IMG/VR virus record: IMGVR_UViG_3300042306_001554
Location: 1 to 20,901 of that record
Length of the DNA: 20,901 nucleotides
Source of the DNA: a virus
Strand: one strand, 5' to 3'
Both the position numbers and the translations under genes were made by a program. Position 1 is the first letter of the stretch. Each line of letters starts with the position of its first letter. The notes under the pieces were generated by a model, which saw only the letters and a list, made by a program, of their open reading frames with translations, made no database searches and was not told the origin of the DNA. Of the stretch, positions 445 through 15,549 are shown piece after piece.

Positions 445-1122
445 TTATCCCTCTTTGTCTTTACCAGAATACTTAACCCCCATTATTGTACCTATAATAC
501 TAAATGCGTTGGTTAAAAGAATACCTAACATATTTGACCAAGTAGACCCAATCATTTGAGTATCTTTATTTATTACTAATGCTAAAATATACATAAAAGT
601 GGTTATAACCCCAATCGAAATAATGACACCTAAAGCTATCTTTACAATATTACCAATTAGCTCTGTTTGTGTTTTCTTTTGTAATACATCTAAATCATTA
701 ATTGCCATTGTTTTAGCCTCCTCAGCCCCAATTCTAGCCAATTCTGACTTTGCCATTTCTTGTTGTAATTCCAAACTTATTCTCTCGTTATCTTGTTTCC
801 ATGCAATTAGTTCTCTATTCTGAACTTCAAAGGTAATTTTAGCATCTTCAACCTCTTTAAATGTTAATTGAAGTTCTGACATTATCCTTTGATTCTCAGC
901 ATTAACTTCAAGTAATTCTTTATTCTTTTCTTGAACTTGTTTTGTTATTTCTAACCTCTTTTTTCTTGTCTCTTTGTCTTTTTCTTTACAATTCTCAACA
1001 TATTTGGCAAAATCAGAATCATCTGAAGTGTCAATAATCTTCAAAATATTTCCCTCTAACCCAATATTTTTCTTTTCGAGTAAGTTTATTAACTCTTCCT
1101 TAGTTTCTTTATTTAATTTCAT
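445..1122 (-). CDS. Coiled-coil protein with two C-terminal membrane segments
   Basis: The protein has 225 residues. Residues about 47-150 are charged and helix-rich with heptad-like spacing, consistent with a long coiled coil. Residues about 155-184 and 195-216 are hydrophobic, giving two membrane helices, and the tail KDKEG is charged. With the N terminus in the cytoplasm, the tail would also be cytoplasmic. No enzyme motif is visible. The ATG overlaps the stop of the response regulator by one base (TAATG), which argues for translational coupling and a shared role. It sits between the regulator and the holin, so a membrane effector, antiholin-like protein or signalling adaptor are possible roles, but this is inference only. 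I do not recognise the family. Confidence 0.8.
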   Translation of the reverse strand: MKLNKETKEELINLLEKKNIGLEGNILKIIDTSDDSDFAKYVENCKEKDKETRKKRLEITKQVQEKNKELLEVNAENQRIMSELQLTFKEVEDAKITFEVQNRELIAWKQDNERISLELQQEMAKSELARIGAEEAKTMAINDLDVLQKKTQTELIGNIVKIALGVIISIGVITTFMYILALVINKDTQMIGSTWSNMLGILLTNAFSIIGTIMGVKYSGKDKEG

Positions 1123-1556
1123 TATCTATATACCTTGAATGGAGCAGTTCTCGTTTTATATCCTTCATAATCTTTTTTAAATTCTTCTAACCTAGGTTCA
1201 ATGTCATCAGATTTTATAATCCAAAATTGAGCTCCAGCTTGAACAGCTTTCGCTTGTTCTTCAGGTTCATTAGAAGAAGATATAATCCCTATAACCACAT
1301 TATTTCCATACTCAAAGTTAATTTTTCTAATCAATTCTATACCATCAAAGGAAGAACCAATTATATTTAAATCAACGAATACACACTCAGGTCTATCTGA
1401 AAAATCACCTTGTAACCATTTTTGAAATAGTTTTGCGGCTTCATCAGAACTATTTAACGATTTAAGTGAAAGACTAATGTCCAATAAAGAACATGCGTCT
1501 TCAAATACTAAATGGAACAAGTCCTCATCATCTACCAACATTAACGTATCAATCAT
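1122..1556 (-). CDS. Single-domain response regulator (receiver only)
   Basis: The protein has 144 residues and is a CheY-like receiver domain with no output domain. Expected residues are visible: the acidic pair D9-D10 in LMLVDDED, the phosphoacceptor D62 in CVFVDLNI, a Ser at 93-94 in GIISSSN (usual Thr/Ser position), and K115 in FWIIKSDD. The usual Pro after this Lys is Ser here. The receiver fills almost the entire protein, so it must act through a partner protein rather than by binding DNA. It starts 12 bases after the kinase stop and overlaps the coiled-coil gene, so kinase, regulator and membrane protein form one unit. The natural reading is that the 707-residue kinase upstream phosphorylates D62. 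Confidence 0.9.
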   Translation of the reverse strand: MIDTLMLVDDEDLFHLVFEDACSLLDISLSLKSLNSSDEAAKLFQKWLQGDFSDRPECVFVDLNIIGSSFDGIELIRKINFEYGNNVVIGIISSSNEPEEQAKAVQAGAQFWIIKSDDIEPRLEEFKKDYEGYKTRTAPFKVYR

Positions 1557-1568
1557 TTTAATTTTTTT

Positions 1569-3692
1569 TTATTTTAAGTTTATTTTCATTTTAGTACCAA
1601 TTTCATTTTTTTCACAAGTAATTTCAAATCCGTGTTCTTCTAAAATTGCAACACAAATATTTAAACCTAACCCTGTACCACTCTCTTTTTGTCCTTCTTT
1701 TCTAGTGTAAGGTTTTGATAAATGTTCAAAGTCTTGTTGAGTAATACCTCTACCATTATCTTGTATTATTAAAATATCACCCTCCATAAAAATCTTAACA
1801 AATTTTGTGTCAGAGTCGTTATATTTCAAACCATTTCGTATAAGATTATCAATAGATGTACAAAACAATGACTCGTTCACATCTTTAGTTATTAGTTCAT
1901 CGATATGAACCTGACTTTTGTATGAAGTTGTTGATAAGTAACTATCTAAAATACTTTTTAAATTACATTCTGTTTTATTTAATACAACATCTTTTTTAAC
2001 TAAGTTTGTGAATTCATAAACACCTCTATAAACTTTTTGTGCGTGAGCCAATCCATCTTTAATCATTTTAAATGGTGCGGATATTTTTAAATCCTCTATT
2101 TGTTCAAGTGTTAATCTTCGTTCTAAAGAACTAACACCTCTAGGTATGTATGTATTAATACCTGAGTGCATATCGTGTCTGAGAATCTTAGCTGCGTGTT
2201 CTAAATAGGTGTTCTTTTTCTCAATCTCAATAGATTGTGTGATTCTATCAGTTATATCTGTTGCAATTTTCATTACTCTTTGTACTTTACCATCAACCCC
2301 AAATACTGGATTATATGACGCTTGAATCCAAACTTGTTTTTTATCTTTAGTAAACCTTAAAAACTCATCAGTAACATAAACACCACTTCTCAACAATTTC
2401 CAAAATTCTTTATATTCGGGAGATTTTGAATATTCCTTTGAAACAAAAATTTTATGATGTTTACCTTTTAATTCTTTTTCAGAATATCCCATTTTTTCAC
2501 AAAATAAATTATTGGCAAACATAATTTTACCATCCAAATCGAATTCAATAACCATATTGGATGTATTAATTGCAGTCATTCTATTTCTAATCTCAATTTC
2601 TTTTTGCTTAACCTCCGTTACATCATATCTGATTGACATATAACCTAAAAATTTACCATTTTCATCAAAATCCCCCTTTATGTAAGAATCAACCCAATAT
2701 AATTCACCATTTTTTGTTTTATTCGTAACAACTTCATTCCAAATTTTCTTCTCATTAACAACTTCTCTGTACATATTAGTCCAAAAATCCTTTGGGTGTC
2801 TTCCAGAATTCACTATACTATGGTCTTTACCTTTTACCTCATCTAAACTCCATCCTGACACTTCCTGAAACTTTTTATTTACATAAGTTATTCTACCTTT
2901 GTTATCTGCTTTAGATACTAAAACCGAGGTATCAACAAACTTCTCAAATTCTTGTAAGTTATCTTTTAGGATATTACTTTCCTTAACTGAATATGCGAAT
3001 GAATAAAGTGAAGATAACATTTGTGCAAAATTAACTTCCAAATCAATCCAATTCCTTAAGGTTTCACTCTCAATACACACAACACCAATAACATCCCCTT
3101 TATACATAATTGGGACATCTAACATAGATTTAATACCAAGTGGTTTTAAGTAACCTTCAGTGAAACATGAGGTTGCAATATGGGTTTCCGCGTCATTAGC
3201 AATTATTATTGGTTCAATTTCCAATTGTTCAAAATAGAGGTTAAAATCCTTTTTGAACATTTCAGACCCACCATACCATTCGTTCTCCTTTTGTATATAT
3301 AATTGTTGACAGATAATTGAAGTTTTATCAGAATTATACAACCAAATAGAACATCTATCAGCATTAATTGATTCTGTCACTTCTTTTGTTAATGTTTTTG
3401 CCCCTTCTTTAATATTACCTTGGTAAAATAATGGATTATGCGATTGTGAAATGAGAACTTTATTAAGATTCTTTGAATATTTTGTTAAAAAAATATTATG
3501 TTTTAGTTTTTTGGTATATTCCTTAACCAAAATTAAAAAGAATGGTAAAAAAGTAATAAAACAAGAAAATTCAAATATGTTTATCAGTTGACTATTTCTT
3601 ATCAAGAAAAATGTTGAGATTGTCTTCAAAAGAAGAAAGGTAGTCATTATTAAAACTGAAAAGTAAAGTGTAAATCTGAATTTCTGTGTCAT
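1569..3692 (-). CDS. Membrane sensor histidine kinase (GAF-PAS-PAS-kinase)
   Basis: The protein has 707 residues. Hydrophobic helices lie at about 9-31 and 38-57 with only a few residues between them, so the periplasmic loop is very short. A GAF-like domain follows (about 80-237, with GIKSMLDVPI and GVVCIES), then PAS domains at about 245-365 and 368-485, each ending with a typical D-V/I-T tail. The catalytic part has an H-box with H506 in ILRHDMH, an N-box with N616 and N620 in DNLIRNGLKYN, a G1 box DNGRG at 645 and a G2 box GTGLGL at 672. All residues needed for activity appear present. The sensor parts are cytoplasmic, so the signal is probably internal or from the membrane. It heads the operon with the response regulator and is divergent from the endolysin. 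Complete histidine kinases are rare in phages. Confidence 0.92.
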   Translation of the reverse strand: MTQKFRFTLYFSVLIMTTFLLLKTISTFFLIRNSQLINIFEFSCFITFLPFFLILVKEYTKKLKHNIFLTKYSKNLNKVLISQSHNPLFYQGNIKEGAKTLTKEVTESINADRCSIWLYNSDKTSIICQQLYIQKENEWYGGSEMFKKDFNLYFEQLEIEPIIIANDAETHIATSCFTEGYLKPLGIKSMLDVPIMYKGDVIGVVCIESETLRNWIDLEVNFAQMLSSLYSFAYSVKESNILKDNLQEFEKFVDTSVLVSKADNKGRITYVNKKFQEVSGWSLDEVKGKDHSIVNSGRHPKDFWTNMYREVVNEKKIWNEVVTNKTKNGELYWVDSYIKGDFDENGKFLGYMSIRYDVTEVKQKEIEIRNRMTAINTSNMVIEFDLDGKIMFANNLFCEKMGYSEKELKGKHHKIFVSKEYSKSPEYKEFWKLLRSGVYVTDEFLRFTKDKKQVWIQASYNPVFGVDGKVQRVMKIATDITDRITQSIEIEKKNTYLEHAAKILRHDMHSGINTYIPRGVSSLERRLTLEQIEDLKISAPFKMIKDGLAHAQKVYRGVYEFTNLVKKDVVLNKTECNLKSILDSYLSTTSYKSQVHIDELITKDVNESLFCTSIDNLIRNGLKYNDSDTKFVKIFMEGDILIIQDNGRGITQQDFEHLSKPYTRKEGQKESGTGLGLNICVAILEEHGFEITCEKNEIGTKMKINLK

Positions 3693-3767: not shown

Positions 3768-4571
3768 ATGTTAAAAATTGGATCACAAGGAGCTTTAGTA
3801 AAACTCCTACAAGAAAAATTAGGTGTTACTGCAGATGGTGCTTTCGGACCTGGTACTGAAAAAGCACTCAAAGAATGGCAAACTAAAAATGGTTTAGTTG
3901 CTGATGGCGTTGCAGGTCAAATAACTTTGGGTAAAATGGGAGTATCTCTTCCAAAAGTCGAAAAAGAGACATTAAAATTAGAAAAACTAAAAGGTCAAAT
4001 ACCTGATGCTGTAATTTCTGAAATCGCAATGATTGCTGATAAGTTTGGAATCATCACTAATTTGAGATTATGTCACTTTTTGGCACAATGTTCAACAGAA
4101 TCAGGTAATTTCAAAGCTGTTTCTGAAAATCTTAATTATTCTAAAGATGGATTGTTAAAAATATTTCCAAAATATTTTCCAGGTGTACTAGCTGAGTCAT
4201 ATGCCCACCAACCTGAGAAAATCGCTTCTCGTGTTTATGGTAGTAGATTAGGAAATGGTGATGAAACAACTAAAGAAGGATGGAAATTCCGTGGTCGTGG
4301 TTATATCCAATTAACTGGAAAACAAAACTATCAAGTTTTCTCTGGTTTTATTGGTGAAGATTGTGTTGCTAACCCTGATTTGGTTGCTACAAAATATCCT
4401 CTAGGTTCTGCCGCGTTCTTCTTTAATAACACAAGCCTTTGGAATGTATGTGATGAAGGTGCGTCTGAAGAAGTTGTAACAAAAGTAAGTAAAAGAGTGA
4501 ATGGTGGTTATAATGGTTTAGACCACAGAAAACACGAATTTAAAAGATTTGAAAAACTATTGTTAGTTTAA
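3768..4571 (+). CDS. Endolysin: peptidoglycan-binding domain plus GH19 hydrolase
   Basis: The protein has 267 residues. Residues 1-57 form a PG_binding_1 domain (GSQGALVKLLQEKLGV, then DGAFGPGTEKALKEWQ), which binds peptidoglycan. Residues about 75-265 form a glycoside hydrolase family 19 (chitinase-like) domain that cleaves glycan strands. E111 in CSTESGNF is the likely acid catalyst, and the family signature FRGRGYIQLTG is at 174-184. RVNGGYNGLDHR near the end also matches family members in phage lysins. No signal peptide is visible, so release through the holin encoded 3.4 kb away is expected. It stands alone between an ATATTTAT box and a strong terminator. It has no N-terminal tag, unlike the two other wall hydrolases at 9330 and 11088, which fits a cytoplasmic lysis role. 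Confidence 0.93.
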   Translation: MLKIGSQGALVKLLQEKLGVTADGAFGPGTEKALKEWQTKNGLVADGVAGQITLGKMGVSLPKVEKETLKLEKLKGQIPDAVISEIAMIADKFGIITNLRLCHFLAQCSTESGNFKAVSENLNYSKDGLLKIFPKYFPGVLAESYAHQPEKIASRVYGSRLGNGDETTKEGWKFRGRGYIQLTGKQNYQVFSGFIGEDCVANPDLVATKYPLGSAAFFFNNTSLWNVCDEGASEEVVTKVSKRVNGGYNGLDHRKHEFKRFEKLLLV

Positions 4572-6321: not shown

Positions 6322-6353
6322 AAAAAAAACACTCCATATGGAGTGTTTTTTTT
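6322..6353. terminator. Bidirectional terminator, perfect palindrome
   Basis: The 18-base palindrome ACACTCCATATGGAGTGT at 6329-6346 is flanked by A8 on the left and T8 on the right. It separates the plus-strand gene ending at 6320 from the minus-strand gene ending at 6357. Confidence 0.9.
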
Positions 6354-6356
6354 GTC

Positions 6357-7055
6357 TTAAATATTATAAGAAAACTTGGTGTATAAAAATGTGAACCTTT
6401 TGTTTTTAATTAGATTACGAACATAATCTTTATTATGTACATTTTTATAAATTGACCCAATAAAATTACTATCCATCCAAAATCCCAATACTCCTATTTT
6501 ATCATTTATATCAACACCACAATTTAATTTTTCAATGTCAGGTAAAGTCTTGAACCATTCATATGCCATATTGAAACTATTTTCTGTTATAGAATCAAAA
6601 TTTATTTCAATAGATACAATTTTATCTTGTACATAGACTAATCCAATTCTAAAGTCGTGATTAGTTTTAAAATCTAAAACACTATCAACAAGAAAGTGAT
6701 GAAATGGAACATAACTATGTAATTCATTATCATTACCTATCAGCTCAATCGTAAGATTAGTACTTTTTAAAGTTAATTTAGTTGGGGTTTTTTCGTTATC
6801 AACTGAAAAATTAGACAATACGTTTTTAGTAAAACTATCAGATTGTTGTGTTACAACTTTTTCATTTGGGTTTCCTTCATCAATGTAAAATTTGGATAAA
6901 GAAATTTCACCATTATTTGAAGTGATATTGTTGATAGTTCTTTTTTGAGGGTTAAATTCACAAACTTCAACACTAATATATCCATCATTATAAACCACTT
7001 GTGAAAATGAAACAAATGGTAAAAGACAAAATAGGAATAAAATTGTGTTTCTCAT
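6357..7055 (-). CDS. Secreted protein of unknown function
   Basis: The protein has 232 residues from the ATG at 7053-7055. The N terminus MRNTILFLFCLLPFVSFSQ is a signal peptide of a form common in Flavobacteriia, with probable cleavage near SFS-Q. The longer frame (21 residues more) would bury this signal, and the better start lies after a host-type promoter, so the shorter form was chosen. The mature part is rich in beta-prone segments (TKLTLKSTNLTIELIG, KIVSIEINF) and has no enzyme motif I can name. It is untagged. A secreted or periplasmic phage protein on a host promoter could alter the host envelope, for example in exclusion of other phages, but that is speculation. It could have come from the host. 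Confidence 0.8.
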   Translation of the reverse strand: MRNTILFLFCLLPFVSFSQVVYNDGYISVEVCEFNPQKRTINNITSNNGEISLSKFYIDEGNPNEKVVTQQSDSFTKNVLSNFSVDNEKTPTKLTLKSTNLTIELIGNDNELHSYVPFHHFLVDSVLDFKTNHDFRIGLVYVQDKIVSIEINFDSITENSFNMAYEWFKTLPDIEKLNCGVDINDKIGVLGFWMDSNFIGSIYKNVHNKDYVRNLIKNKRFTFLYTKFSYNI

Positions 7056-7088
7056 AGTAGTGTTATTTTTCTGATGATTTAATAAGTA

Positions 7089-7119
7089 CAAAAATACAAT
7101 TCTATTTTCTTTTTCCAAA
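7089..7119 (-). promoter_or_regulatory. Bacteroidota-type promoter for the secreted protein
   Basis: On the minus strand TTTG (7119-7116), exactly 19 bases, then TATTTTTG (7096-7089), a full match to TAnnTTTG. The gene starts 33 bases further on. It is the cleanest host-type promoter in the window. Confidence 0.7.
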
Positions 7120-7146
7120 AAAATTAGAGTTTTTTTTTAAAAATCA

Positions 7147-7704
7147 TTAATCCCACCATCCACGCATTCCTGAACCATCAAAAATATCATCCCAATTCCC
7201 TTCATTTTCATAAACACTTGGGTGTTGACCTTTTAATGTTTCCCAAAGTTCATTCCATTCTATTTCTTCAAGTACTCTAATTCTTTCAAAATATTTACGT
7301 TTGAACTCTTGTTCTTCTTCAGAATCTTTATCTACCATTTCCAAGAAACCTGGTTTATCTTCAATAGGTATAAAATCATAATTAAACCCACTTAAACCTC
7401 TACCCATTTCTTTCTCTACAATATCAAAATATCTATCTTCACGTATGTTTTTAATTATCTCAACAACACGTCTCATTTTAACCACTTTCTTCATTCTGCT
7501 GTGTTCAACTTCAATACCTTTCTTTTCAACACCCTTAGCAATGTCATTTACACCAATTTCAACGAAATCTAACGTACCACTATAATCCCACCAATGATGA
7601 TTCCACAGAGCTTTTCTGAATTTGTATATATTCCTAAAGAAATTAGGTAAATCTCGCATTAAAAATTGTTTGGTTCTACCAAACCAAGTATAACTATAAC
7701 CCAT
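7147..7704 (-). CDS. Conserved phage-type protein with Trp-rich N terminus, unknown function
   Basis: The protein has 185 residues. It opens MGYSYTWFGRTKQF and has an aromatic basic stretch (FRKALWNHHWWDYS) followed by charged helices, then an acidic, Trp-rich C terminus (EIEWNELWETLKG). I have an impression of similar WNHxWWDY proteins in large tailed phages, but no function is known to me. It has no signal peptide, tag or membrane helix. It is the last of three genes on one strand (8160 to 7147) with gaps of 1 and 14 bases, so it is probably part of the operon that starts with the small membrane protein at 8160. Confidence 0.8.
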   Translation of the reverse strand: MGYSYTWFGRTKQFLMRDLPNFFRNIYKFRKALWNHHWWDYSGTLDFVEIGVNDIAKGVEKKGIEVEHSRMKKVVKMRRVVEIIKNIREDRYFDIVEKEMGRGLSGFNYDFIPIEDKPGFLEMVDKDSEEEQEFKRKYFERIRVLEEIEWNELWETLKGQHPSVYENEGNWDDIFDGSGMRGWWD

Positions 7705-7718
7705 ATGATTTAATTTTA

Positions 7719-7973
7719 TTAAAATAAAAAAAATTGTGATGAACCGAAAAGATTTGATTTACTTTTTCTTTTAAATGAAACCATTTTTGATTTCTTTTCC
7801 TTTTCAAAATTAGAATTGAAAGTTGAGATATGTTTTGTATTCATATTCATTTTCCATTTCTTCAAATATAACTCAAATAACTTAATAGTAGTTTCAATTT
7901 GTGAATAATTTTCACAAGAATCCAATACTTTCATTATCCAAGTAAATTCTTTTAATGACTCGTTACTCAACAT
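7719..7973 (-). CDS. Small hypothetical protein
   Basis: The protein has 84 residues. The N-terminal half is helical (LKEFTWIMKVLDSCENYSQ, then ETTIKLFELYLKKW). The C-terminal half is basic and Ser/Lys-rich and ends SSQFFLF. The ATG lies one base after the stop of the gene at 7975 and the stop is 14 bases before the next ATG, which supports a real gene in a tight operon. No family is recognised. Confidence 0.62.
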   Translation of the reverse strand: MLSNESLKEFTWIMKVLDSCENYSQIETTIKLFELYLKKWKMNMNTKHISTFNSNFEKEKKSKMVSFKRKSKSNLFGSSQFFLF

Positions 7974-7974
7974 T

Positions 7975-8160
7975 TTATTTTTTATTATTGGGGTTATTAA
8001 ATTTGTTTAAAATATTATTAACATTATATAAATCAGTAATACCATTTGATTTCAATAATTTTTGAAATAGAGGTTTACCAAATTTAAACACCAAATAAGC
8101 AATATAGATTGAAATGGTTAGCCAAACAACACCAACCAAAGACCAAATAATTTCAGACAT
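7975..8160 (-). CDS. Small single-pass membrane protein
   Basis: The protein has 61 residues. Residues about 5-27 (IWSLVGVVWLTISIYIAYLV) form one membrane helix, followed by a basic, Asn/Lys-rich tail, so the tail is probably cytoplasmic. It heads a three-gene operon and follows a promoter close to the Bacteroidota consensus. Proteins of this kind in phages can act on host membrane proteins, but nothing here shows a specific role. Confidence 0.65.
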   Translation of the reverse strand: MSEIIWSLVGVVWLTISIYIAYLVFKFGKPLFQKLLKSNGITDLYNVNNILNKFNNPNNKK

Positions 8161-8175
8161 AATTCTAATTTTAAT

Positions 8176-8206
8176 CTAAGATATGAAATTAAAATTACTC
8201 TTCAAA
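8176..8206 (-). promoter_or_regulatory. Probable Bacteroidota-type promoter for the 8160 operon
   Basis: On the minus strand TTTG (8206-8203), a 19-base spacer, then TATCTTAG (8183-8176), one base off TAnnTTTG. The upstream element lies in the last codons of the gene at 8195. Confidence 0.45.
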
Positions 8207-8497
8207 ATTTTTAACGTATTTTTTTATTGTTTGTCTTCTAACTTTGTCAGAAACATCAGGAAACTTATCTATAATTTCCAAATCAATTAAATCAACTAAT
8301 CTTTTAACATTATTTTTAACAGGAATTCCCTTATCGTCAACCATAATCTTATATTTCCCAAGAAAAGATATATAATATTCAGGCACTTCAACAGCTCTAT
8401 AATTACGTCTTATATAACGTAAAATATCATCATTAGCTTCTGAATATTTACTTAATATATCGTCTTTTTCTTCTTCAGTTATAATTAGTCTTTTCAT
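8195..8497 (-). CDS. Tagged small protein (class B tag), unknown function
   Basis: The protein has 100 residues. The N terminus MKRLIITEEEKDDILSKY is a class B tag nearly the same as those of the two hydrolases at 9330 and 11088, with I-T-E at 6-8. The rest is charged and mostly helical (ending RRQTIKKYVKNFEE), with no motif recognised. The start codon overlaps the end of a 16-base palindromic promoter, so its mRNA is probably leaderless or nearly so. Confidence 0.8.
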   Translation of the reverse strand: MKRLIITEEEKDDILSKYSEANDDILRYIRRNYRAVEVPEYYISFLGKYKIMVDDKGIPVKNNVKRLVDLIDLEIIDKFPDVSDKVRRQTIKKYVKNFEE

Positions 8498-8511
8498 ATT
8501 TATATAAATAT
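8496..8511. promoter_or_regulatory. Perfectly palindromic ATATTTAT box (divergent promoter)
   Basis: ATATTTATATAAATAT at 8496-8511 is its own reverse complement, so an ATATTTAT box faces each direction. On the minus strand six bases separate the box from the ATG of the 8195 gene. On the plus strand it faces the gene at 8547. Confidence 0.55.
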
Positions 8512-8546
8512 TGTTTATTTGTGTAAATTTAATTATTTTTTACCAT

Positions 8547-8819
8547 ATGAAAAAAGGAATTCATCATTTAGTTAATAAAATTTTCAAATCTGAACTAGAA
8601 CTCCTATATGGTGTAGGTAGTAACGTGGAAATTCAAAACATATTGTTTAGTACTAATAAAAAAATTCATGTGATTAGTTGTAAATTATTTATTGGTGATG
8701 TTAAATTATATGAAGAAATTGGTCAAGATGGTTTAAATTTTATTTTTGGGGAAGCTTGGAAATTTATGGGATTTTATAATAAAAAATTTATGTTACAAAT
8801 ATCTTTTGAATTGACTTAA
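8547..8819 (+). CDS. Small hypothetical protein
   Basis: The protein has 90 residues from the ATG at 8547. A longer frame from about 8511 would start inside the palindromic promoter and begins with a non-protein-like run, so it was not chosen. The sequence starts MKKGIHHLVNKIFKSELELL and is of mixed charge with beta-prone segments (KIHVISCKLFIGDVKLY). No motif, signal or membrane helix is seen. It precedes the FKBP gene by 40 bases and may be co-transcribed with it. Confidence 0.65.
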   Translation: MKKGIHHLVNKIFKSELELLYGVGSNVEIQNILFSTNKKIHVISCKLFIGDVKLYEEIGQDGLNFIFGEAWKFMGFYNKKFMLQISFELT

Positions 8820-8859
8820 CGAATTTGTATTATTATTGTTTCACTAAAATATTAATAAA

Positions 8860-9285
8860 ATGAAAAAAGTACAAAATGGTGACACCATTACAGTCAATTA
8901 TACAGGTAGATTATCTGATGGAACAATTTTTGATTCCTCATTAAATGAAGGTCGTGAACCTTTGGTTTCAACTTTAGGTCAAAATCAATTAATCAAAGGA
9001 TTTGAACAAGGATTGATGGAGATGAGTGTTGGTGATAAAAAAACAATTGAAATAGACCCAAGTGAAGCCTATGGCGATTATGACCCTGAAAGAATTACAA
9101 CAATCAGTAAATCTCAAGTTCCTCAAGATGTTAAAGTTGGTGAAACCTTACAAGGGATGAGTTCACAAGGTCCAATAATCGTTAAAATTGTGGATGTAAA
9201 TGAATCAAGTGTTACAATAGATGCTAATCATCCATTAGCTGGACAAAAATTAATATTTGATTTGGAATTAATTGGTATCTCTTAA
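8860..9285 (+). CDS. FKBP-type peptidyl-prolyl isomerase, SlyD-like
   Basis: The protein has 141 residues with the FKBP fold signatures VNYTGRLSDGTIFDSS (about 13-28), then GFEQGLMEMSVGDKKTIEI and PSEAYGDYD. A chaperone-like insert follows between the two halves of the FKBP fold, as in SlyD. It lacks the His-rich metal-binding tail of E. coli SlyD. It would catalyse cis-trans isomerisation of prolyl bonds and act as a folding chaperone in the cytoplasm. FKBPs of this type are usual in Bacteroidota, and a phage copy may help fold virion proteins. The upstream AAATATTAATAAA is a degenerate form of the ATATTTAT box. The stop codon lies inside the loop of its own terminator. Confidence 0.92.
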   Translation: MKKVQNGDTITVNYTGRLSDGTIFDSSLNEGREPLVSTLGQNQLIKGFEQGLMEMSVGDKKTIEIDPSEAYGDYDPERITTISKSQVPQDVKVGETLQGMSSQGPIIVKIVDVNESSVTIDANHPLAGQKLIFDLELIGIS

Positions 9286-9305
9286 GATACCAATTAATTT
9301 TTTCT
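9266..9305 (+). terminator. Terminator overlapping the 3' end of the FKBP gene
   Basis: A 14-base perfect stem, AATTAATTGGTATC (9266-9279) with GATACCAATTAATT (9286-9299), has a 6-base loop TCTTAA holding the stop codon, and is followed by a T run. Confidence 0.85.
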
Positions 9306-9306
9306 G

Positions 9307-9314
9307 ATATTTAT
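9307..9314 (+). promoter_or_regulatory. ATATTTAT box for the M15/hydrolase gene
   Basis: TGATATTTATAAAG lies 15 bases before the ATG at 9330 and directly after the FKBP terminator. Confidence 0.55.
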
Positions 9315-9329
9315 AAAGAAATTCATTTG

Positions 9330-10643
9330 ATGAAACGATTAATTATATCCGAATCAGAAAAAAATCATATTAAATCTCTATATAATATTAATGAAATTGA
9401 TACTGAAAAAGTTGTATCAAGTTTATTTACAAATGCTAAAAAAATAGCAAAAGATTTAGAATCAGGTTCAAGTTCAACAAGTTCAACAAGTTCAACAAGT
9501 TCAAGTGATACGAGCACCTCATCAGCTGGGGGGTCTTCAAGTGAATCAGGTCAAAGTGGTAGTGTTGCTGCTGGTGAATTTTTTAAACATCCTAATGCTG
9601 ATAGTATAACTTTAAAATCATACCCAACAGCAGTACCACTTAATGTTAATGCTGAAAAACTTTTAAAAAGTATATTCGCTGAAGCAGGTACACCTAATTT
9701 AACATATACAAGTACACTTAGAACTTATGAAGACCAAGCAAGAGCAAATTCACAAAACAGAAGGGTTGATATATTAAATTGGTATGGTAATGAGGTTGCC
9801 CAAGCTTGGGATAAACTAAAAGCAAATCAAATGACACAGCAACAATTTGCTGATTTTTTAAGAGAGAGAGATAAACGCACTGGAAAACTTATGAGTAACC
9901 ACTTATCTGGTTTTGCAATTGATATTACACCATATAATGAACAATTTGCTTCCACAGCTGAAAGATTAATGAAACAAGGTAACTCAGGGATTAGAAAAGT
10001 TCTAAGAGAAAAAGGAAATAATGCAGTACACATTGAGTTTAATTTTAGTGTTACTGATAAAAGTGGTATTTCATCACCAGGTAGTAGTTCAAAACAAGGT
10101 GAAAAAAAATCTGATAAAGCAATTTCTAAACAAGGAATTATTATTGATAAGAATGTTGATTCTTCTGATTATGCTATTGTTTTTGGTGGGTCACCTAGTA
10201 ATACATATGGTGCTCAGTTTATGTACCAACAAGGTAGTAATTACTTGAAAAATAAAAATGTTGTTTATAGTAATTTTGAGAATTCATTGGATAATGTTAT
10301 AAATTATATTAAATCAACTGACCCTAATGTTAAAATTAGTTCTGTAAGTGGTTTTTCAGCTGGGGGTAAAAATGCTTGGGCTGCGGCAAAACAAGGATAT
10401 AAAGCAGGACTTATAGACCCTGTAGTTACTCCAGATACTATATCTTTATTAGGGAATGATTTAAGTGGTTCTTTACCTCAGAATATTAAAATGGTATCAA
10501 GACAAGAGAATTGGAGTGGACAACATAGAAAACATGGTGATAGTTTAAGTAAAATTGAAAAAACTCAACCAGATATAAGAAGAAATGTTAATCACGCACA
10601 AATGCCAGCACAATTCTTTTCAGAATTTGCATCATTTGTTTAA
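9330..10643 (+). CDS. Tagged two-domain hydrolase: M15-type peptidase fused to an alpha/beta hydrolase
   Basis: The protein has 437 residues from the ATG at 9330; an in-frame TTG at 9327 is a weaker start. Residues 1-45 are a class B tag plus helical module (MKRLIISESEKNHIKSLYNI, then NEID) shared with the gene at 11088. Residues 46-80 are a Ser/Thr/Gly-rich linker. Residues about 85-240 look like an M15 (VanY/D-Ala-D-Ala carboxypeptidase-type) zinc domain: H191 and D198 in SNHLSGFAIDI and H234 in NAVHIEF are the zinc ligands. Residues about 268-437 look like an alpha/beta hydrolase, with nucleophile S343 in GFSAG, a candidate acid D363 and H422 in NHAQMP. The pairing suggests cutting of wall cross-links plus an ester or amide bond. 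I know of no named family with this fusion. Confidence 0.82.
   Translation: MKRLIISESEKNHIKSLYNINEIDTEKVVSSLFTNAKKIAKDLESGSSSTSSTSSTSSSDTSTSSAGGSSSESGQSGSVAAGEFFKHPNADSITLKSYPTAVPLNVNAEKLLKSIFAEAGTPNLTYTSTLRTYEDQARANSQNRRVDILNWYGNEVAQAWDKLKANQMTQQQFADFLRERDKRTGKLMSNHLSGFAIDITPYNEQFASTAERLMKQGNSGIRKVLREKGNNAVHIEFNFSVTDKSGISSPGSSSKQGEKKSDKAISKQGIIIDKNVDSSDYAIVFGGSPSNTYGAQFMYQQGSNYLKNKNVVYSNFENSLDNVINYIKSTDPNVKISSVSGFSAGGKNAWAAAKQGYKAGLIDPVVTPDTISLLGNDLSGSLPQNIKMVSRQENWSGQHRKHGDSLSKIEKTQPDIRRNVNHAQMPAQFFSEFASFV
9471..9506 (+). repeat. 9-base tandem repeat coding the Ser/Thr linker
   Basis: AGTTCAACA is repeated three times exactly (9471-9497) and followed by a diverged copy. It encodes SST units in the linker between the tag and the peptidase domain. 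Such repeats can change copy number by slippage and so change linker length. Confidence 0.85.
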
Positions 10644-11033
10644 TTACTCATACATCATATATTCCTTTTCAGGATGTAATTTTTCAAATATTTTAAGTAA
10701 CTTAGCGGCAATTGAATTGGCTTCATCTTCATTTATTCCACCAACATCTGGACCTTGTTCTCTATTTAAAATAGTAAGTTGGTATTCGTGTACCCATTCG
10801 TGAGCTAATGTTCTCAATATATCTCTTAACATTCTTCCCTTAGCCAAAACTTTAATTTCACTTTTTTGATTTCTTGAACCCGTTGTCATTAATCCAACTC
10901 TTTTAGGTAAAAATGTTATTGTGACATCCTTTTCAATTGGATAATTATTATACAAGAATTTTATAAACTCGTGAATGTATTTATGTTTCCCTTTATCAAT
11001 ACATAAATTTTTATATATTACATTAGCTTTCAT
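10644..11033 (-). CDS. Small zincin-type metallopeptidase (HEWVH)
   Basis: The protein has 129 residues from the ATG at 11031-11033; a longer frame of 11 residues more would run through the promoter box. HEWVH at 78-82 is an HExxH zinc motif, and NEDEANSIA at about 101-109 supplies the likely third ligand, as in small SprT/ImmA-like zincins. It has no tag, signal peptide or membrane helix, so it acts in the cytoplasm. The N-terminal half (VTITFLPKRVGLM) is beta-prone. It converges end to end with the gene at 9330, with no gap between their stops. The substrate cannot be told. Confidence 0.82.
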   Translation of the reverse strand: MKANVIYKNLCIDKGKHKYIHEFIKFLYNNYPIEKDVTITFLPKRVGLMTTGSRNQKSEIKVLAKGRMLRDILRTLAHEWVHEYQLTILNREQGPDVGGINEDEANSIAAKLLKIFEKLHPEKEYMMYE

Positions 11034-11037
11034 ATTG

Positions 11038-11045
11038 ATAAATAT
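11038..11045 (-). promoter_or_regulatory. ATATTTAT box for the small metallopeptidase
   Basis: Minus-strand AAATATTTATCAATATG: only four bases separate the box from the ATG, the same spacing as at 18926. A leaderless transcript is likely if the box is a -10 element. Confidence 0.55.
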
Positions 11046-11067
11046 TTTAATTTTTACTATTATCAAA

Positions 11068-11075
11068 ATATTTAT
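11068..11075 (+). promoter_or_regulatory. ATATTTAT box for the tagged muramidase-like gene
   Basis: AAATATTTATAAAA lies 12 bases before the ATG at 11088, divergent from the box at 11038. Confidence 0.55.
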
Positions 11076-11087
11076 AAAAAAAACAAA

Positions 11088-11936
11088 ATGAATAAAAAGT
11101 TAATCATTACTGAAGAAGAAAAGAAACAAATTAAATCTTTATATAGACTAAATGAAATTGATGCTGAAAGTATTGTAAATAGTTTATTTAAATCAGCACA
11201 AGATATTGCTAAACAAGCTGAACAAGGTAAACTAAGTGATAATTCAGATAATACTGAAGATTCCAATAGTGAGAATACAACAGATTATTCATCCTCTACA
11301 GATAGTGGTAGTGGTACTTCTTCAGATTTTATTGAGATAACCAAAAAAGTCATACAAAAATTTGAAGGTGGTTATTGGAATCCTGAATGTGCAAAATACC
11401 CAGGTACTAAGCATCCAAGAAAAGAGGGTGCTTATAGTAGGTCAGGTGAAACTATGTTTGGTATTGATAGAGAAGCGGGAGATATTGAAAAGGCCGTACC
11501 AACTGAAGGGAAACAATTTTTTGGTATAATTGACCAAGAAAAACAAAGAATGGGAATGGAAAACTTTTGTAAAAAATGGAAGTGGAATTATGGTGGTGGT
11601 GAATTAAGAGAAAATTTATTAGACTTGGCTGCAAGGATAATGAAAAATTTATATGATAAAAATGCAAACGCGTTTTTCAAAGGTGATACAAAGAAAGTTG
11701 TTGAAAGTAGTAGACCATTAATGTTACATTTTTCATATGGAAGTTGGAATGGACCTGGTTTCTTTAAACATTTTGCAGAAAGAATTAATCAAGGTGTAAA
11801 AGATGGTTTACCTATTCGTAAACTTGTGAAAATAGCTAAAGAAGACCGTACAAAAAGATTTGCAGGTACTTTTTGGGCTAAAGGAACAGAAAAAGTAAAT
11901 GCGGCAATTGATGATGAAGCAGGATATAGTGCTTAG
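11088..11936 (+). CDS. Tagged muramidase-like lysozyme (GH108-like)
   Basis: The protein has 282 residues. Residues 1-47 are a class B tag and helical module (KKLIITEEEKKQIKSLYRL, then NEID) closely similar to that at 9330, including SLF and IAK further on. Residues 48-80 are an acidic Ser/Asp/Asn linker. The remaining 200 residues contain FEGGYWNP (E93) and SGETMFGIDREAG, which resemble the catalytic Glu and the GxTxxGI signature of GH108-type N-acetylmuramidases. Further on is SYGSWNGPGFFKHF. I call it a glycan-cleaving lysozyme with moderate confidence. It pairs with the hydrolase at 9330: same tag, same layout, different catalytic domain. The tag suggests a place in the virion rather than the lysis role of the GH19 enzyme. 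Confidence 0.72.
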   Translation: MNKKLIITEEEKKQIKSLYRLNEIDAESIVNSLFKSAQDIAKQAEQGKLSDNSDNTEDSNSENTTDYSSSTDSGSGTSSDFIEITKKVIQKFEGGYWNPECAKYPGTKHPRKEGAYSRSGETMFGIDREAGDIEKAVPTEGKQFFGIIDQEKQRMGMENFCKKWKWNYGGGELRENLLDLAARIMKNLYDKNANAFFKGDTKKVVESSRPLMLHFSYGSWNGPGFFKHFAERINQGVKDGLPIRKLVKIAKEDRTKRFAGTFWAKGTEKVNAAIDDEAGYSA

Positions 11937-11939
11937 ATA

Positions 11940-12317
11940 TTATTTTTTATCCTCAATTTCATCATAACAAAATAATTGACTATTATCTTTAGTTAAATAA
12001 TATTGAAATTTTTTTGAATCTCCACTAATTGTTTTAGGTGTCTGTTTTTCTATTTCTTCTGGCATTGTCTTTGTACTACATTTACTATTCTTGTACTTAT
12101 CATCTTTAAAATCCTCTACAGATTTAATTTCAAAAGTTTTTGTCCCCCCACTTGATGGTGGAGGAGTACTTGGAGCTGGTGCTGGAGGTGCTGGAGGTGG
12201 TGGAGTGCCTGGTGCTGGAGGTGGTGGTGGAGGGGGTACAGGTCCTTGTTCCAATATGTATTTTCTTTCTAATAATATATTTCTCTCTTGAATTAATTTG
12301 GTTTTTCTATAAGACAT
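11940..12317 (-). CDS. Tagged proline-rich protein, unknown function
   Basis: The protein has 125 residues. The N terminus MSYRKTKLIQERNILLERKY followed by ILEQG is a variant tag with three I/L-x-E sites (IQE, LLE, ILE). A Pro/Ala stretch follows at about 26-58 (runs such as PPPPPPP and PPPAPP), then a charged domain of about 65 residues with two Cys (CSTK and FCYDE). The Pro stretch makes an extended rod-like spacer. The opposite strand reads as a Gly-rich frame, which is a shadow. No family is recognised. Confidence 0.75.
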   Translation of the reverse strand: MSYRKTKLIQERNILLERKYILEQGPVPPPPPPPAPGTPPPPAPPAPAPSTPPPSSGGTKTFEIKSVEDFKDDKYKNSKCSTKTMPEEIEKQTPKTISGDSKKFQYYLTKDNSQLFCYDEIEDKK

Positions 12318-12331
12318 AATACTTTTTTATA

Positions 12332-12339
12332 ATAAATAT
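12332..12339 (-). promoter_or_regulatory. ATATTTAT box for the proline-rich protein
   Basis: Minus-strand AAATATTTATTATAAAA lies 14 bases before the ATG, directly after the terminator of the gene at 12384. Confidence 0.55.
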
Positions 12340-12350
12340 TTTATAAAAAC

Positions 12351-12376
12351 AAAACACATCTAAAAAGATGTGTTTT
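12351..12376 (-). terminator. Terminator after the gene at 12384
   Basis: A perfect 11-base stem, AAAACACATCT with AGATGTGTTTT, has a 4-base A loop (T loop on the minus strand) and a T-rich tail on the minus strand. Confidence 0.85.
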
Positions 12377-12383
12377 TCTGTTG

Positions 12384-12569
12384 TTAACTAAATAACTTTT
12401 TAACTTTTTCCATTACTTCTCTTTGTTTATTCTCCAATTCTTGGATTTTTAACCTTTGTTCTCGATTCAAGTCTAAACTATCTCCCTTTATTCTATTTAT
12501 TTCATTAAAATATTTAGTATGTTCATTTAATAGTGAACCATAAACTTGAGCTTTTTGTTCGTCATTCAT
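12384..12569 (-). CDS. Small helical protein
   Basis: The protein has 61 residues from the ATG at 12567-12569 (MNDEQKAQVYGSLLNEHTK). An in-frame upstream extension of 10 residues is Lys/Asn-rich and overlaps the divergent gene, so it was left out. The C-terminal half (LNREQRLKIQELENKQREVM) is a likely coiled coil. LLNEHTK holds an L-x-E site, but the N terminus is not like the tags. A strong terminator follows. The function is unknown. Confidence 0.65.
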   Translation of the reverse strand: MNDEQKAQVYGSLLNEHTKYFNEINRIKGDSLDLNREQRLKIQELENKQREVMEKVKKLFS

Positions 12570-12585
12570 AATTTTATTTTTTTTT

Positions 12586-13077
12586 ATGGAATTTATCAAG
12601 AAATATGAATTTTATATCAAATTCTTTGTGATTATATTATCAATTATACAACCTTTTATTCTTTTGTCAATATGTGGTGAATTATGGTCAATATCAAGTT
12701 ATTGGAAAACACCATTACAACCACTTTTCATTTTAGTAAACGCAGTCACAAGTTATTTCTTTTTCAGTACTGACAAATGGTTAATACCTTCAATTTTTTT
12801 ATTACTCCTAACTGCGTTTTCAATAGAACTTTATCCCATTACTCATAACATTTTCGCGGGACTTTTTTTTCTCTCATGTTCTTATCCCTTATTAACACTT
12901 AAACGATTCCGATTATTTACGGTTTTTTATCTAATGTCTATTCTTGTTCTATTATCATCAGGTATGTTGTGGTTTGAAATTTATTGTGTTTTAATACTAG
13001 GGTCATACCATCTGACAATCTTATTATATAAACATTACTTGGATAAATTAAGAGAACATAATCATTACAAATTATAG
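12586..13077 (+). CDS. Multi-pass membrane protein, unknown function
   Basis: The protein has 163 residues, very hydrophobic, with about five membrane helices (near 10-31, 44-60, 64-82, 84-104 and 109-142). The C-terminal tail is basic (HYLDKLREHNHYKL), suggesting it is in the cytoplasm. Its ATG is 16 bases from that of the divergent gene at 12569, and its last 13 bases overlap the end of the convergent glucosaminidase gene. Use of Cys and Trp in the helices is higher than in neighbours, which may hint at a host origin. No family is recognised and no clear promoter was found. Confidence 0.72.
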   Translation: MEFIKKYEFYIKFFVIILSIIQPFILLSICGELWSISSYWKTPLQPLFILVNAVTSYFFFSTDKWLIPSIFLLLLTAFSIELYPITHNIFAGLFFLSCSYPLLTLKRFRLFTVFYLMSILVLLSSGMLWFEIYCVLILGSYHLTILLYKHYLDKLREHNHYKL

Positions 13078-13676
13078 GTTCTTTCCTCCATTCTTAACTT
13101 GTAATTATCGACATACTCATCATATCTCCATAACTCATAATATTCGATTACAGAACCAATGTGAGCCCAATACCCCACACCTCCGTAACCTTTACAATTG
13201 TTTACCCAAAATTTCCAATCCTTACCTACAGCATTTGGATAAAATCTGTGTAAAAAATCAGCATGGTCAGAAAATGAATGTTCAAAATTATCGTATTTTC
13301 TCCATTTAATACCACCTGGTGATTCCCAATAATCTCCATTATATAAAGTTTCATAATACTTCATACCAAAAAGATTATTTGTTTTCAAAGCAAGCTCTGA
13401 TTTCCCACCACCACTTTCAACTATTGCTTGTGCCAATTGGATACTTGTAGGAATACCACATTCAATATGGTATAATATCGCAACTTCTTGATACTCCTTA
13501 CAAAAATTGGTGAAAGGGTGGTTGTTTTTGATGTTCACATTTACTGAGAAACTAATAGCGGTAACATCTCTGTGAACTAAATTTTCATCTTCCGAAGAAA
13601 CTGAAATGTTTTGTGATTTATTTAAATTTGTAAATACTAATATAAACCACAAAATGATTACAATTACTTTTTTCAT
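13065..13676 (-). CDS. Secreted glucosaminidase (GH73/FlgJ-like)
   Basis: The protein has 203 residues from the ATG at 13674-13676, which begins a signal peptide (MKKVIVIILWFILVFTNLN). The frame upstream adds nine residues that would spoil it. The catalytic domain has the GH73 signature: IPTSIQLAQAIVESGGGKSE with the catalytic Glu in IVES, then ALKTNNLFGMKYY, and WRKYDNFEHSFSDHADFL. It cleaves the glycan backbone of peptidoglycan at N-acetylglucosamine. Export by its own signal peptide means it acts in the periplasm without a holin. It is the fourth wall hydrolase in the window and untagged. It has an ATATTTAT box 48 bases upstream, so it looks to be under phage control. Confidence 0.88.
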   Translation of the reverse strand: MKKVIVIILWFILVFTNLNKSQNISVSSEDENLVHRDVTAISFSVNVNIKNNHPFTNFCKEYQEVAILYHIECGIPTSIQLAQAIVESGGGKSELALKTNNLFGMKYYETLYNGDYWESPGGIKWRKYDNFEHSFSDHADFLHRFYPNAVGKDWKFWVNNCKGYGGVGYWAHIGSVIEYYELWRYDEYVDNYKLRMEERTYNL

Positions 13677-13724
13677 TTTGTTTTTTGTTTTGTAAAACCA
13701 CAATTCGTTTTACCCCATTACATA

Positions 13725-13732
13725 ATAAATAT
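13725..13732 (-). promoter_or_regulatory. ATATTTAT box for the glucosaminidase
   Basis: Minus-strand AATATATTTATTATG lies 48 bases before the chosen ATG, and is a long-leader case like the holin. Confidence 0.5.
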
Positions 13733-13800
13733 ATTGAATGAATAGTTAAAGACTTGATTGGAATAATTTTTGGTTTTACTTAGTCTTTTTTTTGGGTATA

Positions 13801-14253
13801 CTACTTGTTAACAAATCTATCCAAAATATATTCTTCAATGATTTCCCAATTTTCAGCATAATAATCATCATCAGAAATATAAGTTGGTTCAAATTCCCAT
13901 TCATCTGCTCTACCAGAACTATATTGGCTCAATTCCCCCTCCAATTCAAATATTTCACCATTATCCATTGTTTTTTCTAATCTAACATCATTACCATCAA
14001 ATTCAATGGTCGCCTCAAACTCCTTTTCAAATTTTATTTCCAATCTAAGGTTTTTACCTGAAAATACACTTTTCAAATCATTTTTAATATCGGATTCCAA
14101 TTCAGCCATTGTTGACCAATTTGGTTCACCTTCTAAGGTTATAGTAATTTTAGACCCTTCTATTTCAATATCCATAATTTTATCGGAATAGAATCTTTCT
14201 AAATACTTTTTAATTACACCCTCAAGTTGAGATTCATTAATTAATATTTTCAT
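13801..14253 (-). CDS. Tagged protein (class C tag), unknown function
   Basis: The protein has 150 residues. The N terminus MKILINESQLEGVIKKYLER matches the tags at 14250 and 15568 (hydrophobic start, I-x-E-x-Q-L). The rest is acidic and beta-prone (KITITLEGE, EATIEFDGN) and ends in a helix. Its ATG overlaps the stop of the gene at 14250 by four bases (ATGA), so the two are translationally coupled. It is the last gene of the operon 15185-13801. No family is recognised. Confidence 0.78.
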   Translation of the reverse strand: MKILINESQLEGVIKKYLERFYSDKIMDIEIEGSKITITLEGEPNWSTMAELESDIKNDLKSVFSGKNLRLEIKFEKEFEATIEFDGNDVRLEKTMDNGEIFELEGELSQYSSGRADEWEFEPTYISDDDYYAENWEIIEEYILDRFVNK

Positions 14254-14711
14254 TTCTTACAATTTTCAATAAATTTATTTTTGATTATATCACCATAATT
14301 TTCAATTAAATAATTTGACACCAAAAAAACAACATTCTCAAATTCAACACTATCGTCATCTAATATATCCTGAAAATGTTTGTAATATAAGAAGTCAAGA
14401 ATTACTTCTTCAACTACATTGAGAAATTTGTCAGGGGTTTCATATCGTTCACAATATAAATCCTTATCTTTCTCAAAATTATATATTTTATCAAATTTTT
14501 TATCCATATAATTTTTGATAAGTTTCTTTGCCTTCTCATCATCAAATGGAATTTCAAATTTATTAATAAAATCCTTATAATCCATACCTAACATTCTTGA
14601 CGTATCCATAATACCATCCTCGTTAGCTTTTTGTCTTATCAAATTTTTAGTTCTTTCAACTTTATTTTCTGTGAGTTTTTTTAATTGCGACTCAGTTATT
14701 ATTATTTTCAT
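14250..14711 (-). CDS. Tagged protein (class C tag), unknown function
   Basis: The protein has 153 residues. The N terminus MKIIITESQLKKLTENK is a class C tag with I-T-E and L-T-E. The remainder is helical and highly charged (KKLIKNYMDKKFDKIYNF), with an acidic, hydrophobic C-terminal half (EVILDFLYY, VVFLVSNYLIE). It starts six bases after the stop of the 14718 gene and has no promoter box of its own. Two tagged genes in tandem in one operon may encode partners. The function is unknown. Confidence 0.78.
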   Translation of the reverse strand: MKIIITESQLKKLTENKVERTKNLIRQKANEDGIMDTSRMLGMDYKDFINKFEIPFDDEKAKKLIKNYMDKKFDKIYNFEKDKDLYCERYETPDKFLNVVEEVILDFLYYKHFQDILDDDSVEFENVVFLVSNYLIENYGDIIKNKFIENCKK

Positions 14712-14717
14712 AATTCT

Positions 14718-15185
14718 TTATATTGAATAGTATATATTTTGAGAAGGTTTATTGACAAAATAATGTATATCAATAAAACATTTATTTTTTTTACTATTTA
14801 AATCCTTATCCTTAAATCTATAAAACAAAGAAAAATCATCAGGTAAAATTGAATATAATTCTTCCAATTTTTCTTTAATTTTATTTGTCTCAGCTAAATT
14901 GTCCAAATGATTATTATTAGCCATTGACAAAATATATGATGTGTCTGTTATTTCATCTGATTTCCATCTATCAAACCAATAATTTGAAATATCAACATTA
15001 TAATACTCCCTAACCTTTTCAAGGTCAACTATCAAGTTAATAAAAATAATATTAAAATACTTATCCCACCTATCACTTAGTTCCCAACCTGTAACAAATG
15101 GAAATTTTTTAGCCAATGCTTTAACAGTCAAATTTATTCCCTTCATCTCCATCTCACCAAATTCTCCTATTCTATATCCGTTCAT
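14718..15185 (-). CDS. Hypothetical protein, first gene of a three-gene operon
   Basis: The protein has 155 residues starting MNGYRIGEFGEMEMKG; Met residues at 12 and 14 are other possible starts. The spacing from the promoter box (16 bases) supports the first. The sequence has many Trp, Tyr and Phe (TGWELSDRWDKYFNI, YWFDRWKSDE) and a C-terminal beta-like end. It carries no tag, signal or membrane segment. I do not recognise it. It shares the transcript with the two tagged genes downstream. Confidence 0.75.
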   Translation of the reverse strand: MNGYRIGEFGEMEMKGINLTVKALAKKFPFVTGWELSDRWDKYFNIIFINLIVDLEKVREYYNVDISNYWFDRWKSDEITDTSYILSMANNNHLDNLAETNKIKEKLEELYSILPDDFSLFYRFKDKDLNSKKNKCFIDIHYFVNKPSQNIYYSI

Positions 15186-15201
15186 AGTGTATAATTTTAC
15201 T

Positions 15202-15209
15202 ATAAATAT
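15202..15209 (-). promoter_or_regulatory. ATATTTAT box for the 15185 operon
   Basis: Minus-strand TGTTATATTTATAGT lies 16 bases before the ATG. A partial box, TATTTATAAGAATATT, lies 13 bases further upstream. Confidence 0.55.
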
Positions 15210-15230
15210 AACACAATATTCTTATAAATA

Positions 15231-15266
15231 AAAATCCCCACCATAATATTATATGATGGGGGTTTT
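15231..15266 (-). terminator. Terminator after the acidic protein gene
   Basis: An AAAATCCCC/GGGGGTTTT arm pair with an inner ACCAT/ATGAT stem. The T run on the minus strand follows the gene that ends at 15281. Confidence 0.8.
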
Positions 15267-15280
15267 ATTATGATTTTAAA

Positions 15281-15538
15281 TTAATAATCTTCATCCTCTT
15301 CTTCATCTTCCATTTCATCTCCTTCTTCATCTGAATCTATATCTAAGTAATAATCTTCTTCATCCTCTTCATCATCTTCCATACTATCCTCTTCTTGTTC
15401 AAGTAAAGGTTTCACATTTCCAAGTTTTGAATTTATAAACTTGTTAAATTTCTTTGTTTCGACAATCAAAGAATTATTATATTGTTCCAATATTCTATTT
15501 TTTTCAGAATCAGATAGTTCGTTTAATAAATGTTTCAT
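15281..15538 (-). CDS. Tagged, highly acidic small protein (prohead-core-like)
   Basis: The protein has 85 residues. The N-terminal part MKHLLNELSDSEKNRILEQY is a class B-like tag with L-N-E and I-L-E, and a further L-L-E-Q-E lies near residue 47. The last 37 residues are almost all Glu and Asp with a few Tyr (EDDEEDEEDYYLDIDS). In T4 the prohead core protein gp67 is also a small protein of about 80 residues with a very acidic C-terminal half, cut by the prohead protease. The likeness here is in size, composition and cleavage-site pattern, not in demonstrated homology. A role as an internal core or scaffold protein is therefore a hypothesis. Confidence 0.8.
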   Translation of the reverse strand: MKHLLNELSDSEKNRILEQYNNSLIVETKKFNKFINSKLGNVKPLLEQEEDSMEDDEEDEEDYYLDIDSDEEGDEMEDEEEDEDY

Positions 15539-15549
15539 AGTTTTTATTT

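Follow-up and report, generated by a model that had tools for sequence, protein, structure and literature searches.

The window analysed here was the whole IMG/VR record IMGVR_UViG_3300042306_001554 (20,901 bases), in which an open reading frame on the plus strand (9330-10643, ATG at 9330) encodes a protein of 437 amino acids. The product comprises a tag, a Ser-rich linker, an M15-like domain, a short linker, and a compact alpha/beta hydrolase domain, in that order (Table 1). A sequence-only reading had described the tag, the Ser/Thr linker, and both domains in these places and had named six residues (H191, D198, H234, S343, D363, and H422), which proved correct and were all invariant across five divergent full-length sequences, i.e., the window protein and its homologues from L003 (84% overall identity to the window protein), the L004 group (59%; start codon GTG in L004), L023 (55%), and L031 (43%). 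A chance ORF or an assembly-error fusion was ruled out because the whole architecture was conserved in these five distinct sequences. Searching the full protein against 50,697 phage records gave no match beyond one weak M15-only match, and no convincing relative of the fusion or of the hydrolase was identified among cultured phages. These searches, together with those of Pfam, PHROG, and NCBIfam, were consistent with the earlier claim that no phage enzyme with this order had been described; the M15-hydrolase fusion appears to be undescribed, each of its domains being of a broad known kind. Within the Ser-rich linker, a nine-base repeat (ttcaacaag) at window positions 9476-9505 marks a possibly length-variable stretch.

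Table 1. Coordinates of the fusion protein and of associated genes in the window.
Feature	Positions	Strand	Residues	Remarks
GH19 with PG_binding_1	3768-4571			untagged wall hydrolase
FKBP-type prolyl isomerase	8860-9285	+		Pfam FKBP_C, E 7.7e-23; conserved left flank of the cassette
Tag part 1	9330-9395	+	1-22	MKRLIISESEKNHIKSLYNINE; terminal [IL]xE; prohead protease proposed to cut after E22
Tag part 2	9396-9461	+	23-44	putative phage-specific address segment
Ser/Thr/Gly-rich linker	9462-9581	+	45-84	from sequence; poorly conserved
M15-like zinc peptidase domain	9582-10058	+	85-243	weak Pfam and Foldseek matches, invariant residues
M15-like domain codons	9900-9902, 9921-9923, 10029-10031	+	H191, D198, H234	
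Second linker	10059-10121	+	244-264	95% identical to L003, 50-60% to others
Compact alpha/beta hydrolase domain	10122-10640	+	265-437	AlphaFold2, Foldseek
Hydrolase codons	10356-10358, 10416-10418, 10593-10595	+	S343, D363, H422	
Tagged neighbour, EGGY-type muramidase-like (by eye)	11088-11936	+		282 aa; same two-part N-terminus; proposed partner
Glucosaminidase	13065-13703			untagged; N-terminus looks like a signal sequence

The first catalytic domain contains SNHLSGFAID (pattern SxHxxGxAxD, with H191 and D198), a later second zinc histidine (H234), and RTYEDQA. Its profile matches remained below the Pfam cut-offs for both Peptidase_M15_4 (E 8.6e-4, 20.3 bits compared to a gathering threshold of 25) and M15_3 (E 0.008, 16.7 bits compared to 23.2). 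The glutamate of the ExxH/ExWH motif (Glu/Asp three residues before the last histidine, as in VanX/VanY) was absent from the five homologues, which have N231 or a glycine there, and E236, invariant in the same proteins and two residues after H234, may substitute for it. A model built from the five sequences (pLDDT 82.6) placed D198 and H234 within strands and H191 in a low-confidence loop (pLDDT below 50), and Foldseek with this weaker model ranked VanY first in the PDB (5hnm, E 0.3, TM 0.35) and LdcB fourth and eighth, with E values of 0.3-0.65. A PDB sequence search with either domain returned nothing meaningful. The earlier label of an M15-type peptidase stood with regard to the motif and the named residues, but the domain scored below the family cut-offs and lacked the ExxH glutamate. 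We consider that it is, in good likelihood, M15-type and probably represents a zinc peptidase with an unusual active site, its activity being a prediction.

In the second domain, the serine, aspartate, and histidine were invariant among 15 domain sequences down to 30% identity, and the nucleophile elbow GFSxGG (GFSAGG in the window), LIDP, and H422 were conserved. An AlphaFold2 model from these 15 sequences (pLDDT 95.5) positioned S343 at a strand-helix turn, with D363 immediately behind the following strand and H422 where the final helix begins. The leading Foldseek matches in the PDB were alpha/beta hydrolases, including monoglyceride lipase, the surfactin thioesterase domain SrfTE, and cinnamoyl esterase (best E 1.7e-4, with TM only about 0.4-0.5), as were the best viral structure matches, and the model makes an alpha/beta hydrolase fold very likely. 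Separate folding of the two domains, as the sequence-only reading had proposed, was confident for the hydrolase, with its three residues at the strand and helix positions given above, and weaker for the M15-like part. No Pfam, PHROG, or NCBIfam family covered the hydrolase, including the FSH1 serine hydrolases (PF03959; 14.8 bits compared to a gathering threshold of 21), and a known family as its identity was rejected since none passed the cut-off. One GTDB genome scan, which tested two peptide patterns only, gave no cellular relative.

The hydrolase module was identified at about 40 viral loci in five settings, namely behind the M15-like domain, behind only a tag and linker (L035, L037, L042, L053, and L056), behind a PG_binding_1 domain (L045, E 1.6e-9, and weakly L057), as the last part of a 1388-residue protein, following a VanY domain (L055, E 8.5e-15), and alone (L060-L066). 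The N-terminal 900 residues of the L055 protein resemble the tail-region product gp033 of Flavobacterium phage immuto, and a neighbouring gene matches baseplate families. In L042 and L037, gp25/gp6-like baseplate wedge genes immediately follow tagged copies, and in L060 and L057 genes for tail sheath and tube lie downstream of other copies. Together these settings support a virion enzyme working on the cell envelope, and their gene contexts point to the module as part of such an enzyme, the likeliest guess for its substrate being an ester of wall or outer-membrane material. The suggestion that the second domain acts on a wall decoration or a capsule was plausible, with the recurrence near PG-binding, VanY, baseplate, and sheath genes favouring the envelope role. 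In L055, two paralogous large tail proteins are encoded consecutively (6332-10498 and 11086-14196), and the first also contains a GDSL-like motif (AIIMGDS) besides its VanY and hydrolase domains. A tagged protein in L045 (8008-9534) combines a GDSL-like motif with a transglycosylase-like region and matches PHROG 342, "internal virion protein with endolysin domain" (E 7e-16).

Comparison with related phages showed that the fusion gene belongs to a cassette with conserved flanks, the FKBP gene on the left and the genes around 12400-13700 on the right. Between them the tagged set varied, comprising the M15-hydrolase plus the muramidase-like protein, the M15-hydrolase with M23 and GH19-like enzymes, M23 plus GH19-like enzymes, or a GH19-like enzyme alone; tagged wall enzymes are exchanged at this site. 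The two tagged enzyme genes of the window flank a HEWVH metallopeptidase-like gene of opposite orientation (10644-11066, minus strand), which is kept in L003 and L023. With regard to a lysis cassette containing a holin, the contig has its other, untagged wall hydrolases and a multi-pass membrane-like ORF at 12586-13077. Elsewhere in the window, inspection by eye suggested a sensor histidine-kinase-like protein with GAF/PAS-like regions (1569-3692, minus strand) beside a receiver-domain protein (1122-1556, minus strand); the receiver-like ORF (144 aa) has counterparts in L003 (2075) and L004 (516).

The N-terminal tag consists of two parts. Across the five homologues, invariance within the first 30 columns was limited to M1, I6, E8, I14, and E22. 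Part 1 ends in NINE in the window, compared to LNE, ITE, IKE, ISE, LKE, LLE, and others at the ends of other tags in these phages, with P3 (I/L) and P1 (E) kept and P2 free. Over 475 genes of these phages, [IL]xE occurred at residues 10-32 in 41%, compared to 22% at residues 60-82 and 28% (sd 1.8) in shuffled sequences. A loose set of tag-like ORFs carried the motif in 55% of 71, i.e., not in every one; the loose regular expression caught some false positives, and stricter tag sets were relied on instead. The related cultured phage immuto displayed some N-terminal [IL]xE enrichment yet almost no such tags, and no paper on virion proteomics of this phage was found. Genes for an S77 prohead protease and a Gp23 capsid protein were identified in related long records (G001, G003, and G009) well above cut-off; neither was seen in the 20.9-kb window contig, which is too short to tell. 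The capsid N-termini of the related records read ENQASFLINE followed by ATSDG, and the junction of LINE and A apparently corresponds to the place where gp23 is cleaved in T4. Both G001 and G003 have two tagged ORFs immediately behind the capsid gene. The internal proteins of T4 are directed into the head by N-terminal propeptides of 10-19 residues, which the protease then removes, with residues 8 and 10 governing processing (PMC9026906); the prohead protease cuts after glutamate (PMC5694885). By analogy, part 1 is probably a T4-like capsid-targeting propeptide, and we infer a capsid location and cleavage for the window protein.

Further tag-like sequences were observed in these phages and in the window. 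Tandem arrays of small tagged proteins of the MKIIITEEQ... type occur in G001 (L081-L088, 136891-141786), L105, and G003 (L089-L099, 170000-182000) and perhaps represent a large set of internal head proteins. Another tag type, MNLQEQISRMKSMMGVINE, also ending in IxE, is carried by many small ORFs of L045 (5370-6242 and 15412-20462). A proline-rich ORF of the window (11940-12317, minus strand) starts with MSYRKTKLIQERNILLERKYILEQ, has an [IL]xE-rich N-terminus, and shows low identity to L003 at 12015-12194.

Part 2, about 20 residues following the motif, was alike within one genome on unrelated wall enzymes, with about 62% identity within a genome compared to about 29% between orthologues, and the same comparison for part 1 gave no difference (58 vs. 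59). The part 2 of the window protein was 56% identical to that of the neighbouring gene and 29% to its L003 orthologue. In the window, L003, and L004, the M15-hydrolase and the muramidase-like protein formed matched pairs, and matches also united the M15-hydrolase, M23, and GH19-like enzymes of L023 and the M23 and GH19-like enzymes of L121; a counterpoint is that L031 and L122 have a part 2 in common yet are separate records. The segment differed between genomes even where the catalytic domains were at least 90% identical. Permutation of genome labels never reached the within-genome mean score in 20,000 trials (58 compared to 11.5, sd 6.5, max 48), and with permutation restricted to each enzyme class p was 0.00045. 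At the DNA level, the window and its closest relative L003 (median 93% identity) aligned by blastn over 6975-15549 with only two breaks (9394-9534 and 11135-11276), each covering the part 2 and linker region of one of the two tagged genes, and these are the two longest low-identity runs in 8.6 kb; a finer scan displayed other low 60-base windows within 10755-11654 and at 12015-12194. A similarity search for a partner found no part 2-like segment on any other ORF in the available sequence of these phages.

Taken together, we propose at a probability of roughly 0.45 that the protein is a virion-borne envelope enzyme of a T4-like (gp23/S77) phage, carrying a propeptide and a docking segment. Part 1 would bring the protein into the prohead core in the manner of a T4 propeptide, and the prohead protease would remove it by cutting behind the [IL]xE motif, while part 2 would dock, such that the wall enzymes of the cassette meet each other or one common partner. 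On infection the enzyme would be brought to the envelope; there, the M15-like domain is predicted to cut a stem-peptide bond and the serine hydrolase to remove an acyl or similar group, easing DNA passage through the wall; the docking, both activities, and the timing of action are conjectural steps of this scheme. A precedent for a wall enzyme packaged in the head is T7 gp16 (PMC8954989). Counting against head packaging, such an enzyme would have to withstand passage through the tail tube at ejection, and T4-like phages have no established route for folded enzymes into the periplasm.

Attachment to the tail or baseplate, the tag being a tail assembly handle, fits the hydrolase genes found among baseplate and sheath genes or within a tail protein, i.e., the L055 form ending a tail protein after VanY beside a baseplate-family gene and the copies preceding wedge, sheath, and tube genes. 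The enzyme would then act locally while the envelope is punctured, like the gp5 lysozyme of T4. The L055 tail form has no tag, however, and the tag is common to many small proteins and to genes beside the capsid gene and ends in a head-protease motif, and we regard tail attachment as unlikely. A late endolysin or lysis helper, with a tag for folding, regulation, or protein interaction, would agree with domains that all suit wall degradation and with the nearby GH19 endolysin and glucosaminidase, but the window protein has no apparent signal peptide or anchor and neither of those two enzymes, one of them with a signal-like N-terminus, is tagged. An ordinary endolysin was kept only as a rival, because the contig already holds untagged wall hydrolases; a lysis role, which also leaves the head-protease-like motif common to head-operon proteins unexplained, is improbable.

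The matching of part 2 might instead be a mere trace of gene conversion or duplication between neighbouring genes, with no docking function; the tagged genes stand close together and concerted evolution of neighbouring genes is common. Recent gene conversion is contradicted by the DNA identity of part 2 within pairs, which is mostly 55-72% (81% in L121). In addition, the immediately adjacent part 1 was not homogenised, and in L121 part 2 matches despite two different types of part 1. We hold conversion as the whole explanation to be unlikely, and the similarity could in part reflect an old event. These sequences are most simply read as a docking segment whose partner is specific to the phage and may be the sister enzyme. 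Extended to a two-part address, in which a propeptide removed by the prohead protease precedes a fast-changing, phage-specific docking helix that joins the wall enzymes of one phage into a virion-packaged, dockerin-like multi-enzyme complex, the proposal is tentative and rather doubtful.

If the tag is a head-import propeptide, tags ending in [IL]xE would offer a simple, purely sequence-based way of listing the internal proteins that uncultured T4-like phages encode; the list would include wall enzymes as cargo, and no description of such cargo for this head type was found. A genuine docking role would make the genome-matched segment a natural specificity code for assembling phage enzymes. The hydrolase represents a new family of small alpha/beta hydrolases, probably tied to the passage of phages through the envelope, and might be used as a lytic enzyme module.

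Among known systems, the closest likeness is to the T4 internal proteins IPI-III, with a capsid targeting sequence processed by gp21; both have a short N-terminal segment with a prohead-protease-type motif on many unrelated proteins in a gp23/S77 head system. The present segment, a putative packaging signal, has about 22 residues instead of 10-19, is placed on wall-degrading enzymes, and is followed by a second, genome-specific segment. As a working model, the T7 internal virion protein gp16, with its transglycosylase domain, is a head-carried wall hydrolase delivered at ejection, but it has no sequence relation and a different chemistry, and T7 is a podovirus with a structured core. In cellulosomes, the various enzymes of an organism carry similar dockerins that are specific to it; the analogy lies in a genome-specific segment common to different enzymes, whereas here a single N-terminal segment of unrelated sequence is found, with a postulated partner. 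The M15 peptidases VanY, LdcB, and Peptidase_M15_3 share SxHxxGxAxD, the second zinc histidine, RTxxxQ, and weak profile and fold matches with the window domain, which differs in its sub-threshold scores, N231 in place of the glutamate, and the invariant E236. Finally, mycobacteriophage LysB, like other phage alpha/beta hydrolases, is a serine hydrolase used on the host envelope (PMC7246905); the window domain is much smaller (173 aa), shows no sequence relation that was found, and is not assigned a lysis role.
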